IMG/VR virus record: IMGVR_UViG_3300042905_001919
Coordinates: 1 to 29,140 of that record
Direction: 5' to 3' (one strand)
Length of the DNA stretch: 29,140 bases
From: a virus
Shown here: positions 17,188 to 23,467 of the stretch, in pieces
Layout: each line of letters opens with the position of its first letter
Position numbering within the stretch: the stretch's first letter is position 1
Position numbers and translations under genes: made by a program
The notes under the pieces: model-generated
Databases searched by the model: none
Told to the model about the DNA's origin: nothing
What the model saw: the letters and a program-made list of their open reading frames with translations, nothing else

Positions 17188-17499
17188 TCACAGTGTTCCT
17201 CCCACTCGCGGCATAGACTTCCTGAGTCCCGCCAGAATCTTCGACCATCCAATGCGCTCTTTCCACTCGACGCCATCGGCTATGACCTTGTAGCAGTCCA
17301 CCCGATCCGTCCGGTACAGGTCTAGCGTGTGAATCTTCTCGCCGAAGTCGAAATCACAGATGATGATCTGCCGCCGCAACTCGGGCAGCACGGAAGGGTA
17401 GTCCGGTGCGGGCGGTTCAAGTCGCGCAGCTTCCCGGCCCCGCCGCATTGTTGCGAGTTTGGCGCGTTGGGCTTCGGCTTTTTTGGTCAGTCGGTACAT
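17188..17499 (-). CDS. 103-aa early protein, unknown
   Basis: The product begins MYRLTKKAEAQRAKLATM and has a basic helical first third. It then reads LRRQIIICDFDFGEKIHTLDLYRTDRVDCYKV, and ends GWSKILAGLRKSMPRVGG. The start ATG 17499 has AAGG upstream. It lies immediately left of the cassette array; in the reconstructed ancestor it would directly follow the small Cys-rich gene by 15 bases. I do not recognise a family. Confidence 0.6.
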   Translation of the reverse strand: MYRLTKKAEAQRAKLATMRRGREAARLEPPAPDYPSVLPELRRQIIICDFDFGEKIHTLDLYRTDRVDCYKVIADGVEWKERIGWSKILAGLRKSMPRVGGTL

Positions 17500-17514
17500 G
17501 GTCAACCTTGCACG

Positions 17515-17820
17515 CTAGGTACACTTATCGTTCGGCGTCACAGACCCGCATGGGCCGCACAGTGCATACGCTGCATTCAGCACCAGCGCATCCGGGTCGA
17601 AGTCCGGTTCTGTGCCGTTCATCGTCGCGCCTCGCACTGCCCAACGCACCGCAGCCTTTATCGCCTCGCGCTGGCTGTTGTCGAAGATCGGCAGCGGCGT
17701 ATCCGGTGAGCAATCGCGTTCACTGTCCCATCCTTCTGCGTTCGGTGCGTAAAGCCAGTGGTCTTTCGGCAGCGGAAACGATCCAACGAAGAACCCGCTT
17801 CCGTCTGGTAGTTTGTGCAT
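17515..17820 (-). CDS. Cassette 1 gene, hypothetical 101-aa protein
   Basis: ATG 17820 has an excellent ribosome site (AAGGAGA). The product begins MHKLPDGSGFFVGSFPLPK, and the middle includes DHWLYAPNAEGWDSERD and REAIKAAVRWAVRG; the family is unknown to me. Its last five residues and stop (NDKCT) are encoded partly outside the cassette, by the tail of the interrupted phage gene: the G/TT junction at 17530/17531 falls just after the Asn codon as read leftward. The gene therefore borrows the host gene's stop codon. It is bounded by 10-base inverted ends (17530-17539 and 17854-17863). Confidence 0.7.
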   Translation of the reverse strand: MHKLPDGSGFFVGSFPLPKDHWLYAPNAEGWDSERDCSPDTPLPIFDNSQREAIKAAVRWAVRGATMNGTEPDFDPDALVLNAAYALCGPCGSVTPNDKCT

Positions 17821-17856
17821 GTCTTTCTCCTTTTCAAAAGTCGGCGCTGGTAAGAC

Positions 17857-17923
17857 GCCGAACCCATCATTCCAGGGGAGCTTCGCCAAAAGCGGCTCAT
17901 CCCCCTGAATTCAGACGTTGGCA
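17857..17923 (+). repeat. attC-like site of cassette 1
   Basis: R'' is GCCGAAC (17857-17863) and the junction R' is GTTGGCA (17917-17923). Arms ATTCCAGGGG and CCCCTGAAT pair with one extra C on the left arm, the usual mark of the attC top strand. The inner part pairs AGCTTCGC with GCGGCT loosely. Length 67 bp. Confidence 0.75.
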
Positions 17924-18687
17924 GGCAAAAGCATGTCGCCCTGCACCGCCGTATCGCCAGCGCCGACTTTTGGCGCAGCGAACATTTGCTCTTGTGCTTG
18001 AGCACCCGTCACCCGAGGCACCGCGATTCCGTGGAAATATTCGTGCTCTCGCTCAATCCCGATAAATCGCCGCCCTTCCAAGTGCGCCGCCTCGCCAGTG
18101 GTTCCGCTCCCCATGAAGCAGTCCAAAACCGTGTCGCCTGCGTCCGTGGTCAGCCGTATCAGGTGCCGCATCACGTCCACCGGCTTCTCTGCCGCGTGCG
18201 CCGTCGTCTTGCTGTTTCCGGCCATCCAGCGGCAGCGGTAAATGTCGCTCGCGCTCCGGTTGTCTATCTTGGCGTCTGGCATTCCGGCAAAAAGCACAAC
18301 CTCGTAAGTCGGGCGCAGTTGGCGCGGCCCTGCCGGGCCGATCCACTCCTTGTCCCAAATCATCAGCGAGTCCACTTGCCATTTCACCTTGGCAAACGCA
18401 TAGAGCAGTGTCGGCAGGCTGCGCCAGTTGCCGAAGACACAAGCAAACCCGTCTTGCTTCAGTGCGCGCCGCGCCAGCTTCAGCCATTCGGCGTACCACC
18501 ACGCGCTGTTTTCCATGTCCGCCCATCCGCCAGCCTTCGCGCTTGCGTCGCCGGTCGAGATCGCGCCAATCATGTATGGCGGGTCGGTTATCACCGCATC
18601 CACGCTCATCGGCGGCAATTCCGCCATTACTTCCAGGCAGTCGCCTTGCCACAGTTCAGCGTTACCGATTTTCACTTTCTCAGCCAT
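17911..18687 (-). CDS. Cassette 2 gene: DNA methyltransferase, DPPY type
   Basis: The 258-aa product would transfer methyl from AdoMet to the exocyclic amino group of adenine or cytosine. The catalytic motif TDPPY is at 34-38, and KPVDVMRHLI (168-177) is the motif X region. The AdoMet site DTVLDCFMGSGTTGEAA is at 185-201. Catalytic before AdoMet motif means beta-group order. ATG 18687 is chosen over 18690 and GTG 18693 because GGAG lies five bases before it. The C-terminus (LPANV) runs into the attC site, where the crossover AAC is read as Asn. No restriction partner is nearby, so protection from host restriction or regulation is inferred. Confidence 0.85.
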   Translation of the reverse strand: MAEKVKIGNAELWQGDCLEVMAELPPMSVDAVITDPPYMIGAISTGDASAKAGGWADMENSAWWYAEWLKLARRALKQDGFACVFGNWRSLPTLLYAFAKVKWQVDSLMIWDKEWIGPAGPRQLRPTYEVVLFAGMPDAKIDNRSASDIYRCRWMAGNSKTTAHAAEKPVDVMRHLIRLTTDAGDTVLDCFMGSGTTGEAAHLEGRRFIGIEREHEYFHGIAVPRVTGAQAQEQMFAAPKVGAGDTAVQGDMLLPANV

Positions 18688-18712
18688 CATCACTCCGTAG
18701 TTACGTTTTGCC

Positions 18713-18782
18713 TGCCAACCCGTCGCTCAAGCGGGACGCGCCGCGATAAGGCCGCGTCGCGCCCCTTAGCTATGCGTTAGGC
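18713..18782 (+). repeat. attC-like site of cassette 2
   Basis: R'' is TGCCAAC (18713-18719) and the junction R' is GTTAGGC (18776-18782). The left arm GCTCAAGCGGGACGCG pairs with CGCGCCCCTTAGC, leaving C, C and A unpaired on the left. Its R'' pairs perfectly with the cassette's own 5' end (GTTGGCA), as expected for the circular cassette. A 21-base stretch (18717-18737) is identical in the cassette 5 site. Confidence 0.85.
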
Positions 18783-19372
18783 AACTCGATTGAGCCGGTC
18801 GCCTGGTTTCCAAAAACGTCCCACCCTTCCCGTGTCGGGAACAGAGGGGAACGATCCCTTGCAAACATTTCGAGGTACGGCCCAAGGCACACGCGCTCAA
18901 TCATCGTGTAAAACTCCTCCGGCTTTTCTGAATGCCCGCGCTTCGGCCACACAAACCAAGACGTGCTTTCTCGCATTCCGGTCGTGTTCTTTGTCCTGGC
19001 GTTCGACCTTTCGCTGATGCGCTGCCCTATCACTACAAACTCTGTATTGGTTGTGAACATCCCACCTAGGCCAACGCCGTTTTCTGGCTTACACCATGTC
19101 AGCGTTTGCCGTGGGGTGCATCCCCACGACCGCATGACCTCAAAGCTCTTTTCAAGGTATTTGTTCGTTGTCCACATGAAAACATACCCTTCGCGCACCA
19201 GCATTTGTTCAACCGGCATTGCCTTTATTTCGTCAAGCGTCATCGTGTCGTATGGGATGTCTCGCCCGTGGAACCCTTCCGGGTACTCCCAAGGCGGGTC
19301 AATCACAATGCACCGCCATTGCCTAACACGGCGGTCAACACGGACGCCTGCCGGCGATAAAGCCGCCGTCAT
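18770..19372 (-). CDS. Cassette 3 gene: MT-A70 family adenine methyltransferase
   Basis: The 200-aa product has the catalytic DPPW (25-28, within CIVIDPPWEYP). It then has MTLDEIKAMPVEQM, YVFMWTTNKYL, LTWCKPENGVGLGG and a C-terminal EEFYTMIERVCLGPYLEMFARD. These are the standard MT-A70 landmarks; phage members methylate adenine in DNA. ATG 19372 overlaps the GNAT stop (ATGA) inside the attC site, so the first ~17 residues are encoded by attC. A later GTG (Val23) is the only alternative. The C-terminus LPNA ends within the next attC, just left of its G/TT. Confidence 0.85.
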   Translation of the reverse strand: MTAALSPAGVRVDRRVRQWRCIVIDPPWEYPEGFHGRDIPYDTMTLDEIKAMPVEQMLVREGYVFMWTTNKYLEKSFEVMRSWGCTPRQTLTWCKPENGVGLGGMFTTNTEFVVIGQRISERSNARTKNTTGMRESTSWFVWPKRGHSEKPEEFYTMIERVCLGPYLEMFARDRSPLFPTREGWDVFGNQATGSIELPNA

Positions 19373-19396
19373 GCGCCTGTTACCTCAGCGTTAGAC
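19321..19396 (+). repeat. attC-like site of cassette 3
   Basis: R'' is GCCTAAC (19321-19327) and the junction R' is GTTAGAC (19390-19396), both exact matches to RYYYAAC/GTTRRRY. Arms GGTCAACACGGACGCC and GGCGC...TGTTACC pair with the same extra C on the left. Length 76 bp. It contains the ATGA stop-start junction of two cassette genes. Confidence 0.85.
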
Positions 19397-19833
19397 CCCA
19401 ATAGCGTCATCTGTGCCGGCTCCGAACACCAGAACACCCATGCGTTATGCTTCCGTCCTCGACGGTTTCCCACGTCACGCTGTCCCATGCGCCGGAAACC
19501 CATTGCCTCCCAAAAACTATTGGCGTCAATGTCCTCCGCGACCCAACACGAAATCCTTTCATACCCTTCCTCCTCCGCTTTGCGAATCAACCGCCCGACC
19601 AATTCAGCGCCGTGTAGCCGTCGCTGTGCGTCGTACTGAATGCAGACTTGGTACACCCTCAACACAGGCCATCCGTTGCCCCACACCAGGAACCCACACG
19701 GCTCGCCGTTCTCGTCCTGCGTCCAAAGTTGTCCGGTGTCTCGGTAATGCTCAAGCCGAGGCCGAGGCAGGAACCCTATTTCCTCGTAGTGCTTCTTGCT
19801 CAAGGCATCAACGAATGGTATGGGGTCTAACAT
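19369..19833 (-). CDS. Cassette 4 gene: GNAT-family acetyltransferase
   Basis: From ATG 19833 the 154-aa product begins MLDPIPFVDALSKKHYEEIG. The acetyl-CoA-binding region is about 62-83 (VCIQYDAQRRLHGAELVGRL), followed by ISCWVAEDIDANSFWEAMGF, the usual GNAT beta5-alpha4 pattern with N-x-FWEAMGF. A GTG at 19875 would add 14 residues read through attC. ATG 19833 is preferred because the protein then starts at the family-like sequence; the G of this ATG is the crossover G read leftward. The substrate is unknown. The C-terminus SNAEVTGA is encoded by the next attC. Confidence 0.8.
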   Translation of the reverse strand: MLDPIPFVDALSKKHYEEIGFLPRPRLEHYRDTGQLWTQDENGEPCGFLVWGNGWPVLRVYQVCIQYDAQRRLHGAELVGRLIRKAEEEGYERISCWVAEDIDANSFWEAMGFRRMGQRDVGNRRGRKHNAWVFWCSEPAQMTLLGSNAEVTGA

Positions 19834-19883
19834 TTCGTCCAACGCGGACGCCCTACGGGCGCCGGTTAACTCCACCGTTCGGC
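19825..19883 (+). repeat. attC-like site of cassette 4, 59 bases
   Basis: R'' is GTCTAAC (19825-19831) and the junction R' is GTTCGGC (19877-19883). The left arm CGTCCAACGCGGACGCC pairs with GGCGCCGGTTAAC around CTAC. The layout is very close to the well-known class 1 integron 59-base elements, including the CGGACGCC...GGTTAAC arms. Confidence 0.88.
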
Positions 19884-19884
19884 G

Positions 19885-20073
19885 TCACTGTGCAATCTCC
19901 ACGCCCCATCGAGCGCCACAGTCCTTGCACTGCCAGCGCTCAAACTCTCCGTCGTCGCTTTCGTATGTGCATTCGCGGTTTTCGTGCTTGCATGCCGCCC
20001 GCTTCTCCGCAGTCTCTTTCATGCTGTCGCGGAGGAATTGCGGTATCTGGTACTTCGTTTGTGTCTCGTCCAT
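19885..20073 (-). CDS. Cassette 5 gene: small zinc-ribbon protein
   Basis: The 62-aa product begins MDETQTKYQIPQFLRDSM. It carries two Cys pairs, CKHENREC and CKDCGARW, spaced as in a zinc ribbon. ATG 20073 has AAGGGG ten bases upstream; a TTG nine bases earlier is less likely. It occupies the shortest cassette (308 bp). DNA, RNA or protein binding is possible; I do not recognise a named family. Confidence 0.65.
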   Translation of the reverse strand: MDETQTKYQIPQFLRDSMKETAEKRAACKHENRECTYESDDGEFERWQCKDCGARWGVEIAQ

Positions 20074-20128
20074 TCGCGTCAAACCCCTTTGTGTCTCATA
20101 TGTGGCGTTTCGTTAATCACTACGCGCC

Positions 20129-20191
20129 GCCGAACCCGTCGCTCAAGCGGGACCGTCCGCAAGCGGACGGCCCCTTAGCTCTTCGTTATAC
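20129..20191 (+). repeat. attC-like site of cassette 5
   Basis: R'' is GCCGAAC (20129-20135) and the junction R' is GTTATAC (20185-20191). The left arm GCTCAAGCGGGACCGTCCGC pairs with GCGGACGGCCCCTTAGC, with an AA loop and the extra left C. 21 bases (20133-20153) are identical to the cassette 2 site, pointing to a shared integron source. Confidence 0.85.
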
Positions 20192-20192
20192 C

Positions 20193-20651
20193 TCACCCAA
20201 CCCATCGCCACTTTCCTCCTACGAGGTCGTTGCCAACTGGTTGCGCGGTGCGCCCTTCGCGGCTGTGCCACATTGCTGCACTCCCGCCCGCATCTTCCTT
20301 GTCGAGCCGAAAACCAGCAGCCCGTAAACTGGCCCCGCCTTCTTCGGGCAGGGTGTAGGTAAAAACCGGGTCATGTCCAAGCGCCCGCGCTGCCTTCCGT
20401 GCCGCTCCGTAAAGCATCGAGCACGCGTTTCGCGCCCCATCTGTGCAAAGGCGCGTTATCTCTGCGGCCAGTCCATCGTTCAGTCTCGGCGCTACTGGCC
20501 TGCCAACAATCGCCACGCCGCGCAGTACTCCGGTTTCATCCTCAACGCCAACCGCGAACTTGTAGCCAACCACTGGGCGGCTGTGCCTGTGCAGTCGGCG
20601 CACAAACTCATTCGCGGTTTTCAGGTCGGTCGGCACAATTCGCAGTTTCAT
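20193..20651 (-). CDS. Cassette 6 gene: XF1762-like protein
   Basis: From ATG 20651 the 152-aa product begins MKLRIVPTDLKTANEFV, then HRHSRPVVGYKFAVGVED, GVAIVGRPVAPRL and ITRLCTDGARNACSMLYGAA. It has a GNAT-like ending (TYTLPEEGGASLRAAGF). This layout matches the XF1762 family, small proteins common in phages and prophages with a probable acyltransferase-like fold and unknown substrate. An earlier ATG (20663) lies in the R'' box; neither start has a good ribosome site, so translation may depend on the upstream gene. Its stop is just before the next crossover sequence. Confidence 0.72.
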   Translation of the reverse strand: MKLRIVPTDLKTANEFVRRLHRHSRPVVGYKFAVGVEDETGVLRGVAIVGRPVAPRLNDGLAAEITRLCTDGARNACSMLYGAARKAARALGHDPVFTYTLPEEGGASLRAAGFRLDKEDAGGSAAMWHSREGRTAQPVGNDLVGGKWRWVG

Positions 20652-20659
20652 CGCGTGAG

Positions 20660-20719
20660 GCATAACCTGTCGGTCAAGCGGACGGCGGCAAGCCGCCTCC
20701 GCTTACCTTTGCGTTATAC
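20660..20719 (+). repeat. attC-like site of cassette 6 (right end of array)
   Basis: R'' is GCATAAC (20660-20666) and the junction R' is GTTATAC (20713-20719). The left arm GGTCAAGCGGACGGCGGC pairs with GCCGCCTCCGCTTACC, with loop AA and an extra C on the left. Bases 20714 onward are phage sequence. Confidence 0.85.
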
Positions 20720-20928
20720 GTCTTCGATTCCAACCACGCAACCCGATTCCCCACGATCTCCGCGTCGGCCGGGTGAAACGCATCGCACCGCCTCGGATAC
20801 CGCGCGCCGACGTACATCAACTGCGGCAGAGGTCCGCATTTCCCGAAGCCATGCCGCGCCATCTCGCGTTCGTCGGTGTCTTCCCGGCCGAAGGTGAAGT
20901 TGGAGCAGTCAATGCAGCAGACGGTCAT
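20674..20928 (-). CDS. Small Cys-rich phage protein whose 3' end was replaced by the array
   Basis: The 84-aa product begins MTVCCIDCSNFTF and has CCxDC, FGKCGPLP and RRCDAFHP, probably a small zinc-binding protein. ATG 20928 overlaps the helicase stop (ATGA). The last residues (AKVSGGGLPPSA) are read from attC and are not original. At the crossover, the codon AAC (Asn) is followed by array sequence. Joining it to base 17530 gives SKTYNDKCT and the TAG at 17517-17515, in frame, 15 bases before the next phage gene. The ancestor would be about 76 residues. The altered protein is probably still functional, since only its tail changed. Confidence 0.75.
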   Translation of the reverse strand: MTVCCIDCSNFTFGREDTDEREMARHGFGKCGPLPQLMYVGARYPRRCDAFHPADAEIVGNRVAWLESKTYNAKVSGGGLPPSA

Positions 20929-21806
20929 GAAAAGCACCTGTCTTCCGAGTAGGCAAAGGTTTCTTGGTTGAAGTAAAGGCCAATCTTGCCCTCCCACTCC
21001 CCGTTTCGCTGCTTGTCGCAGATCAAAAAACAGTCTGGGTCAGTTCCGATCAACCCGGTACGGGCAGCCTCCTCCTGTTTTTTGTTCCTCCAGACCGTGA
21101 CCACGTTGTCGACTTGGTCGGTCATGGTTCCCGTTCCCTTGATGTCCATCTTGCCTGGGGCGCTCATTTCGTCCTTCTGCTTGCGCGAGTGCGCAACAAG
21201 GTGGATGTGCATACCGGTGTCCCGCCCGATGGTGCAGAGGTGGTCAAGGAAATGCTTCTGTGCGTTGTAGTCATCCTCACCTATCCCGCACTTCATCAGG
21301 GAGTCAATGACGAAGTGGTCGGCCTTGAGGCGGTCAGCGCAATACCGAAGCACCGCCAGCATCTTGTCCTGGCGAACGGCACCAAGTTGGTCGTATAGCC
21401 ACAACACAGGGTCAGTCCATTTGTGAAACTGGCCGATGGCGGAGGCGCTCGGCGTCCGTCCGTACTCTTGCCGGCACATTCTGGCAAGCGTCAGCATTGG
21501 CCGCATTTCCATCGAGGCGACAACCACCCGCTGACCCTGCCGGCAAAAATTCACGCAAGCCTGGCCGAGTACCATTGACTTTCCAGACCCGTTGAACCCG
21601 CCCCAAAGCGTCGTTTCCCCTTTCCGGAACCCGATCTTGCTGTGTGTTTTTGCCCAAGGCAGATGGGCGCCACGGTTCCCCTCGGGGCCGTGGAAGTAAT
21701 CAACAACCTGCTGCTCATAGTCGCCGGCAGACCTGACCCGGTGCGCCGTGTCCGTGTCTTCCATGTACTCGCTGAAGTCGAGCGAATCAGGCAGTAGCTT
21801 TGCCAT
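20925..21806 (-). CDS. DnaB-like replicative helicase
   Basis: The 293-aa product has a RecA-type ATPase core: Walker A GGFNGSGKS (69-77), then VVVASMEMRP (94-103), Walker B HFVIDSL (164-170) and IHLVAHSRK (201-209). GTGTMTDQVDNVVTVWRNK and a final DKQRNGEWEG complete the SF4 pattern, closest to the C-terminal helicase part of Twinkle or T7 gp4 rather than full DnaB. There is no primase domain, and the N-terminus is only ~55 residues. It follows the initiator module by a 20-base overlap. It would form the hexameric helicase loaded at the origin. Confidence 0.85.
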   Translation of the reverse strand: MAKLLPDSLDFSEYMEDTDTAHRVRSAGDYEQQVVDYFHGPEGNRGAHLPWAKTHSKIGFRKGETTLWGGFNGSGKSMVLGQACVNFCRQGQRVVVASMEMRPMLTLARMCRQEYGRTPSASAIGQFHKWTDPVLWLYDQLGAVRQDKMLAVLRYCADRLKADHFVIDSLMKCGIGEDDYNAQKHFLDHLCTIGRDTGMHIHLVAHSRKQKDEMSAPGKMDIKGTGTMTDQVDNVVTVWRNKKQEEAARTGLIGTDPDCFLICDKQRNGEWEGKIGLYFNQETFAYSEDRCFS

Positions 21807-23359: not shown

Positions 23360-23410
23360 GGGACGGAATGTATCACAGGAAAAATAAAAGTGCAAATAAA
23401 CTTGACACGT
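23351..23410. promoter_or_regulatory. Candidate operator half-sites around divergent promoters
   Basis: ACGTGTCA (23351-23358) at the regulator's start is the exact inverse of TGACACGT (23403-23410), which overlaps the rightward -35. The pair brackets the leftward promoter, so one protein could control both. It is only 8 bases, so chance is possible. Confidence 0.4.
23367..23395 (-). promoter_or_regulatory. Leftward early promoter
   Basis: Read leftward: -35 TTGCAC (23395-23390), 17-base spacer, -10 TACATT (23372-23367) with an upstream TGA giving an extended TGn -10. The start point falls about base 23360, next to the ATG of the HTH gene. It should drive the leftward early block. Confidence 0.65.
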
Positions 23411-23429
23411 TGCCACGGATGCGGATAAT
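23402..23429 (+). promoter_or_regulatory. Rightward early promoter
   Basis: A consensus -35 TTGACA (23402-23407), 16-base spacer and -10 GATAAT (23424-23429) precede the rightward operon. Only six bases separate it from the leftward -35. Transcription would start near 23436, about 30 bases before the first gene, which has GGAG before its ATG. Confidence 0.7.
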
Positions 23430-23467
23430 GATGGTCAGCAGCAAAACAAAACCACTGGAGAACCACC

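Follow-up and report, generated by a model that had tools for sequence, protein, structure and literature searches.

Why phages can exchange individual accessory genes with such ease has long been asked, and the usual answer is illegitimate or homologous recombination. The subject of this study is a 29,140-base virus record from IMG/VR (IMGVR_UViG_3300042905_001919, positions 1 to 29,140; hereafter the window), in which single genes lie between attC sites, the recombination sites of integron cassettes. An earlier note, made from the letters of this DNA, had described an integron-type array of six cassettes inside a phage replication operon, with neither an integron integrase nor an attI site, and had proposed capture by a host integrase at a non-attI G/TT position. 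The window encodes a terminase, a head protein, RecT/RecE-like proteins and a DnaB-like helicase, identifying it as phage DNA; a megablast search against isolated phages gave no match. Here we ask whether the array is genuine, and whether phages merely borrow bacterial cassettes or hold an integron system of their own. The main point, which the earlier note overlooked, is that all six genes run antiparallel to their attC sites.

A scan of the window against Rfam returned no match, and an attC covariance model (R1) was therefore made from bacterial integrons, using a training set of 25 aligned bacterial attCs located 5′ of the integrase gene intI. Applied unfiltered to both strands of the window, R1 gave exactly six strong matches (36.8-47.8 bits, E-values 9e-6 to 6e-8), all on the plus strand: attC1, at the end of cassette 1 (17857..17922, 36.8 bits), attC2 (18714..18782, 43.5 bits), attC3 (19321..19396, 45.8 bits), attC4 (19825..19883, 40.5 bits), attC5 (20129..20191, 39.1 bits) and attC6, the distal end of the array (20660..20719, 47.8 bits). 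The next-best match anywhere in the window reached 9.8 bits (E-value 2.6), the six sites scored at most 9.7 bits on the minus strand, and all 76 R1 matches in bacterial control loci fell on the expected strand. A second attC scanner, calibrated to a threshold that yields fewer than one false match per 1.7 Mb of shuffled sequence, found the identical six sites; it superseded an early crude motif scanner that had overlooked three of them. The sites have paired RYYYAAC/GTTRRRY ends, an L''/L' stem and one additional base in L''. The six integron attC sites are thereby confirmed: the attC-type ends and paired arms read by the earlier note are recognized by the model at every site, none was missed by the covariance check that it had suggested for this region, and the outcome that it had named as refuting, attC models scoring none of the sites, did not occur.

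Each attC is found immediately 5′ to a gene, and a role in ending transcripts has been proposed for such hairpins (PMC8876359), so they might instead be RNA elements, terminators or 5′ leaders, ahead of each gene in the phage operon. We consider this very unlikely. An RNA hairpin needs neither the invariant AAC/GTT core nor an extra base confined to L''; moreover, related sites hold the canonical position relative to an adjacent intI, homology ends at the attI junction, and whole units are common to different phages (see below). RNA-leader hairpins were accordingly rejected, as the sites keep these integron-specific features. Among 80 viral attCs, two-sided changes were found at all nine pairs of the L stem, 95.5% of cells pair, and the L-stem covariation score was 0.444 versus 0.130 for shuffled sequences, in an alignment fitted to the model. 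This covariation supports the view that the attCs would fold as recombination substrates, and in all six window sites the predicted fold of the bottom strand is at least as strong as that of the top. A nucleotide search of plasmids with attC6 gave weak matches only. With an attC of a phage contig (L398), attC2 shares 97% identity across 66 nt.

Cutting at G|TT places the array at 17531..20713 (attC top strand on the plus strand), beginning with the TT that follows G17530 and ending with the G of attC6, and the outer limits given by the earlier note proved exact. The six cassettes span 17531-17917, 17918-18776, 18777-19390, 19391-19877, 19878-20185 and 20186-20713 (387, 859, 614, 487, 308 and 528 bp, respectively), and each contains one gene, as had been claimed. 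All six genes are on the minus strand. Cassette 1 carries a gene of unknown function (17515..17820), whose last codons (NDKCT*) fall within the attI-like flank, followed by an N6/N4 DNA methyltransferase in cassette 2 (17911..18687; PF01555, 1.9e-38) and an MT-A70 methyltransferase in cassette 3 (18770..19372; PF05063, 3.3e-26), which starts either inside attC3 or at a later codon. Cassette 4 encodes a GNAT acetyltransferase (19369..19833; PF00583, 2.8e-8), cassette 5 a 62-residue zinc-ribbon-like protein with cysteine pairs (19885..20073; a weak match to phrog_27876, 2.7e-4) and cassette 6 a Mom-like DNA modification protein (20193..20651; phrog_1384, 3.4e-32).

None of the six genes runs parallel to the attC top strand, as the gene of a canonical cassette does; all six are antiparallel to it and collinear with the phage operon. 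To place this arrangement, IMG/VR was searched with an attC pattern blind to genes, and orientation was determined with the calibrated attC scanner and a hexamer-based gene caller. A first count, of genes lying 5′ of an attC, gave 377 antiparallel and 11 parallel in viruses versus 7 and 67 in bacteria. Counting only cassettes between two attCs, with redundancy removed inside each of the sets (which have a slight overlap), 405 of the 413 from viruses were inverted and 8 were not. The ratio of inverted to parallel cassettes was 222:2 in the pattern-found set, 113:6 in viruses bearing an integrase, 56:0 in viruses with the 'post' gene described below, 9:0 in helicase relatives and 5:0 in the window. 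The same pipeline scored 19 bacterial cassettes as parallel and 4 as inverted; in at least one of the four the frame was miscalled, since the gene annotated at that place is parallel. Among diverse integrons of Gammaproteobacteria, examined as another set, 47 cassettes were parallel and 6 inverted. Genes and attCs share one direction in the plasmid integron used as a control (L103). Five of the eight non-inverted viral cassettes sit in two contigs, L232 and L387. These are the main viral contigs with parallel cassettes, the integrase of L387 lies outside the phage clade described below, and both may be ordinary bacterial integrons within IMG/VR. Misclassification of contigs more generally was rejected, as those checked hold tail, terminase or head genes. 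The inversion rule across viruses suggests that they run their own version of the integron, trading genes for evading bacterial defences.

Gene orientation also bears on whether illegitimate recombination brought a whole bacterial array into the phage as one flipped block. Temperate phages do contain pieces of chromosomal integrons, with Vibrio and Shewanella examples among those reported by Qi et al. 2023 (PMC9892861), but flipping a block leaves its genes parallel to its attCs, whereas those of the window are antiparallel, and the neighbours of a given cassette differ between phages that have it in common. This origin is therefore most improbable, and we rejected it unless the donor array was itself inverted.

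We next considered where the cassettes were inserted. An attI-like insertion site (approximately 17500..17533, plus strand), conserved in about 18 phages, lies between the array and the start of the 'post' gene (17188..17499, minus strand), which is downstream of the site and encodes a 103-residue protein whose alignment covers 21 viral loci. Only 30 nt separate the array end from the start of this gene. In other phages intI is placed as a last operon gene, a conserved block lies directly 5′ of it and the cassettes abut this block; homologs of the 'post' gene show the same arrangement as the window. Across 18 'post' gene loci, information is low farther out, climbs at the R-box AAC and persists to the ATG, and in 15 of the 18 (window included) attCs occur within 1.5 kb, all inverted. 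The site and gene recur in these phages, and the cassettes beside them mostly differ. Contigs L398/L399 are about 80% identical in DNA over the 'post' gene and the site, and this identity ends at the junction, positions 17532-17541. The conserved block at the array edge is thus attI-like, a candidate counterpart of the attI of a complete integron, and the statement that no attI is present is not supported. Of 27 records searched, mostly of the 'post' gene type, 25 had no tyrosine recombinase, and most 'post' gene records of 24-42 kb lack any. The 'post' gene was not found in isolated phages. A large serine recombinase was seen at the end of a cassette array in two contigs (L306, 686-2266; L229, 2658-4331), near intI or the 'post' gene site.

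These data allow the capture proposed by the earlier note to be weighed, in which ordinary bacterial cassettes were inserted by a host integrase at an arbitrary secondary G/TT (attG-like) site of the phage. The lack of intI in the window and in contigs L002, L003 and L010 is in keeping with it, and attCs borne by phages can serve as substrates for IntI1 (Qi et al. 2023, PMC9892861). However, bacterial cassette genes are parallel to their attCs and those of the window are not. The array abuts a conserved block upstream of a single gene family, and the cassettes begin precisely at it, so the insertion point is a site common to about 18 phages rather than a scattered one. Finally, the nearest relatives found for cassettes 1, 2 and 6 are in other phages, among which they were sought, bacterial collections lying outside that search. 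We thus regard this explanation as unlikely; a host integrase as the source of capture is possible, but phages have an integrase clade of their own.

Neither PF00589 nor TIGR02249 found a match across the 29 kb of the window, in agreement with the earlier note that no integron integrase is encoded there; the linked integrase of a complete integron is lacking from this record, possibly a fragment. Elsewhere, 4 of 49 attC-bearing records encoded an integron integrase above the TIGR02249 cut-off. In those four intI lies downstream of the cassettes on the same strand as the cassette genes, and both intI-bearing records that were checked have tail genes on the same contig. Scanning IMG/VR with an alignment of the four integrases revealed 246 stretches encoding IntI, of which the best 80 were examined. 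Among attCs 5′ of viral intI, 212 of 213 have the canonical direction relative to intI, while the cassette genes beside it are inverted in 200 cases and not in 7, reading towards intI along the phage operon. In a quick, midpoint-rooted tree of 120 IntI sequences, 57 of 62 viral sequences formed one clade (Shimodaira-Hasegawa-like approximate likelihood ratio test, SH-aLRT, 91), together with one entry from a bacterial genome that also has an inverted cassette. That contig (G418; L423/L452) is perhaps a prophage or plasmid-like element. The viral contig L373 has six inverted cassettes and an IntI nested among bacterial ones, such that a second origin of the inverted form is possible.

Isolated phages contain almost no close relative of the viral integrases; matches there were to class 1, Vibrio and Shewanella integrons, two Acinetobacter-phage fragments and Virus Rctr41k. 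The last (KX853513, L492, 4680-5678), a phage from a DAMO (denitrifying anaerobic methane oxidation) enrichment, encodes a 47% identical IntI annotated as xerD, near which an R1-type model detected no attC.

The cassettes themselves show signs of exchange. The closest relatives found for cassettes 1, 2 and 6 are attC-linked genes of other phages: the cassette 1 protein has 68% amino acid identity to attC-linked genes in L263/L328 (one IntI-bearing contig) and 64% in L278, that of cassette 2 recurs as a cassette in L218 (92%) and L223 (83%), and that of cassette 6 has 86% identity to a cassette of the IntI-bearing phage L343. At the DNA level, matches to L343 and L218 are confined within cassette units. 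Cassettes 6 and 1 are thus held in common with IntI-bearing phages (L343 and L328, respectively), and the IntI of L343 belongs to the phage clade. Cassette genes for methyltransferases and Mom-like proteins are found again in unrelated phages, of which some have intI. Among 147 viral cassette proteins taken at random were eight N6/N4 methyltransferases, one C5 methyltransferase, Mom and Lar proteins, an Acb2/Tad1-type sponge and RNA ligases; most of the set had no known function. The sponge, a single protein, is a match to Acb2/Tad1 (anti-CBASS/Thoeris), and the Lar restriction alleviation family is matched by two proteins. The cargo would fit a role in counter-defence. As for the idea that phages carry integron cargo, the cargo looks like a pool of phage type with inverted genes and less like ordinary bacterial cassettes.

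Upstream of the array, the 'pre' gene (20674..20928, minus strand) has a 3′ end extending into attC6, and is preceded in the operon by the DnaB-like helicase/ATPase (20925..21806, minus strand; profile searches). Phage gene context and R1 sites together bear out an integron-type array within a phage replication operon. A divergent intergenic region between the two transcription arms (23360-23467) likely holds early promoters and perhaps an origin.

Taken together, it is highly probable that the six cassettes of the window form a genuine attC array, placed at an attI-like site of the phage within its replication operon and representing a phage-specific form of integron. Of the earlier interpretation, the array in the operon without an integrase stands; the absence of attI and capture elsewhere are not supported. 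Our best reading is of an intI-less array filled in trans, a member of an apparently widespread class of phage integrons with inverted cassettes. More broadly, phages probably hold an integron lineage of their own. It would comprise a separate clade of IntI, phage attI sites that lie next to intI or, as orphans, next to the 'post' gene, and a functionally isolated pool of inverted cassettes, on which phages lacking IntI would draw through an integrase supplied in trans. This integrase would be that of a phage integron, either co-infecting or resident, or that of a host integron, and would recombine the folded bottom strand of an attC with the phage attI or a resident attC, cassettes being inserted by attI x attC or attC x attC. 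An upstream phage promoter would read through the array, so that only genes against the attC top strand would be expressed and kept; such selection would separate the phage pool from bacterial cassettes. The cassettes may supply DNA modification and other counter-defence functions, exchanged one unit at a time.

The lagging-strand effect of bacterial integrons possibly contributes, and inversion might itself have been selected by replication, in that an inverted array in a phage operon replicated co-directionally would have its recombinogenic bottom strand on the lagging-strand template, which would aid folding and recombination. Bottom strands of attCs placed there recombine better (PMC8946536), and both arms of L002/L003 and of L194 are inverted in opposite absolute orientations. 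In L194 and in L002/L003, each of the two transcription arms of a single contig has an inverted array of its own; L002/L003, relatives with the same helicase as the window, have 11 attCs over both arms, always opposed to the genes. Replication accounts for arrays against the operon, but not by itself for genes along it. We view it tentatively, as a companion to selection by expression more than an alternative.

Several points weigh against our reading. Recombination of the window sites is predicted from their sequence, and the bottom strands of attC1, attC4 and attC5 fold only weakly better than shuffles. No clean empty site was found among relatives, and the terminase relative G049 has no attC and no recognisable flanks; joining the window flanks in silico gives a 'pre' frame ending in KTYNDKCT*, a plausible empty site that is a prediction only. 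The window is a 29-kb fragment outside which an intI could lie, and the cause of inversion, whether expression or a bottom strand on the lagging template, may be either.

If our reading is true, phages would have a defined mechanism for gene swapping in the form of a site-specific cassette system that possesses an integrase clade and attachment sites of its own and has counter-defence genes as cargo, and this would explain how one methyltransferase comes to be in otherwise unrelated phages. The inversion rule offers a simple criterion by which an array in a metagenome can be assigned to viruses or to bacteria, and it suggests that the mode of expression keeps the two cassette pools apart.

The presence of attCs in phages is not new. 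Among 10,705 phage genomes, Qi et al. 2023 (PMC9892861) reported 17 clusters of attC sites lacking an integrase (CALINs), 3 complete integrons and one lone intI, 21 phages altogether, with methyltransferases and attCs that IntI1 can recombine. By the definition of a CALIN (at least two attCs within about 4 kb), the window, with six attCs and no intI in the record, is one, and phage CALINs such as that of Tetrasphaera phage TJE1 likewise have attC arrays without intI and small genes including DNA methyltransferases. The three attCs of TJE1 are parallel to its genes, however, and the portion of that report available to us describes neither an inverted class nor a phage clade of IntI nor an orphan attI; a literature search, with preprints and most subscription papers outside its reach, found no earlier report of any of these. 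With chromosomal and class 1 integrons, the phage system shares attC architecture, an IntI sequence with catalytic residues and attC-intI geometry. Bacterial genes mostly follow the attC top strand and run away from intI (47:6 and 19:4), unlike phage cassette genes, which run towards it with the phage operon (200:7). Integron cassettes can also occur at attG secondary sites, outside an intI-linked platform; the window resembles them in this, but its site is not scattered, being conserved and set at a constant distance from a single gene family. Phage moron and counter-defence islands hold small accessory genes (methyltransferase, Mom, Lar, Acb2/Tad1, RNA ligase) in early operons. Here, in contrast, each gene is separately bounded by attC, making it a defined unit of site-specific exchange.

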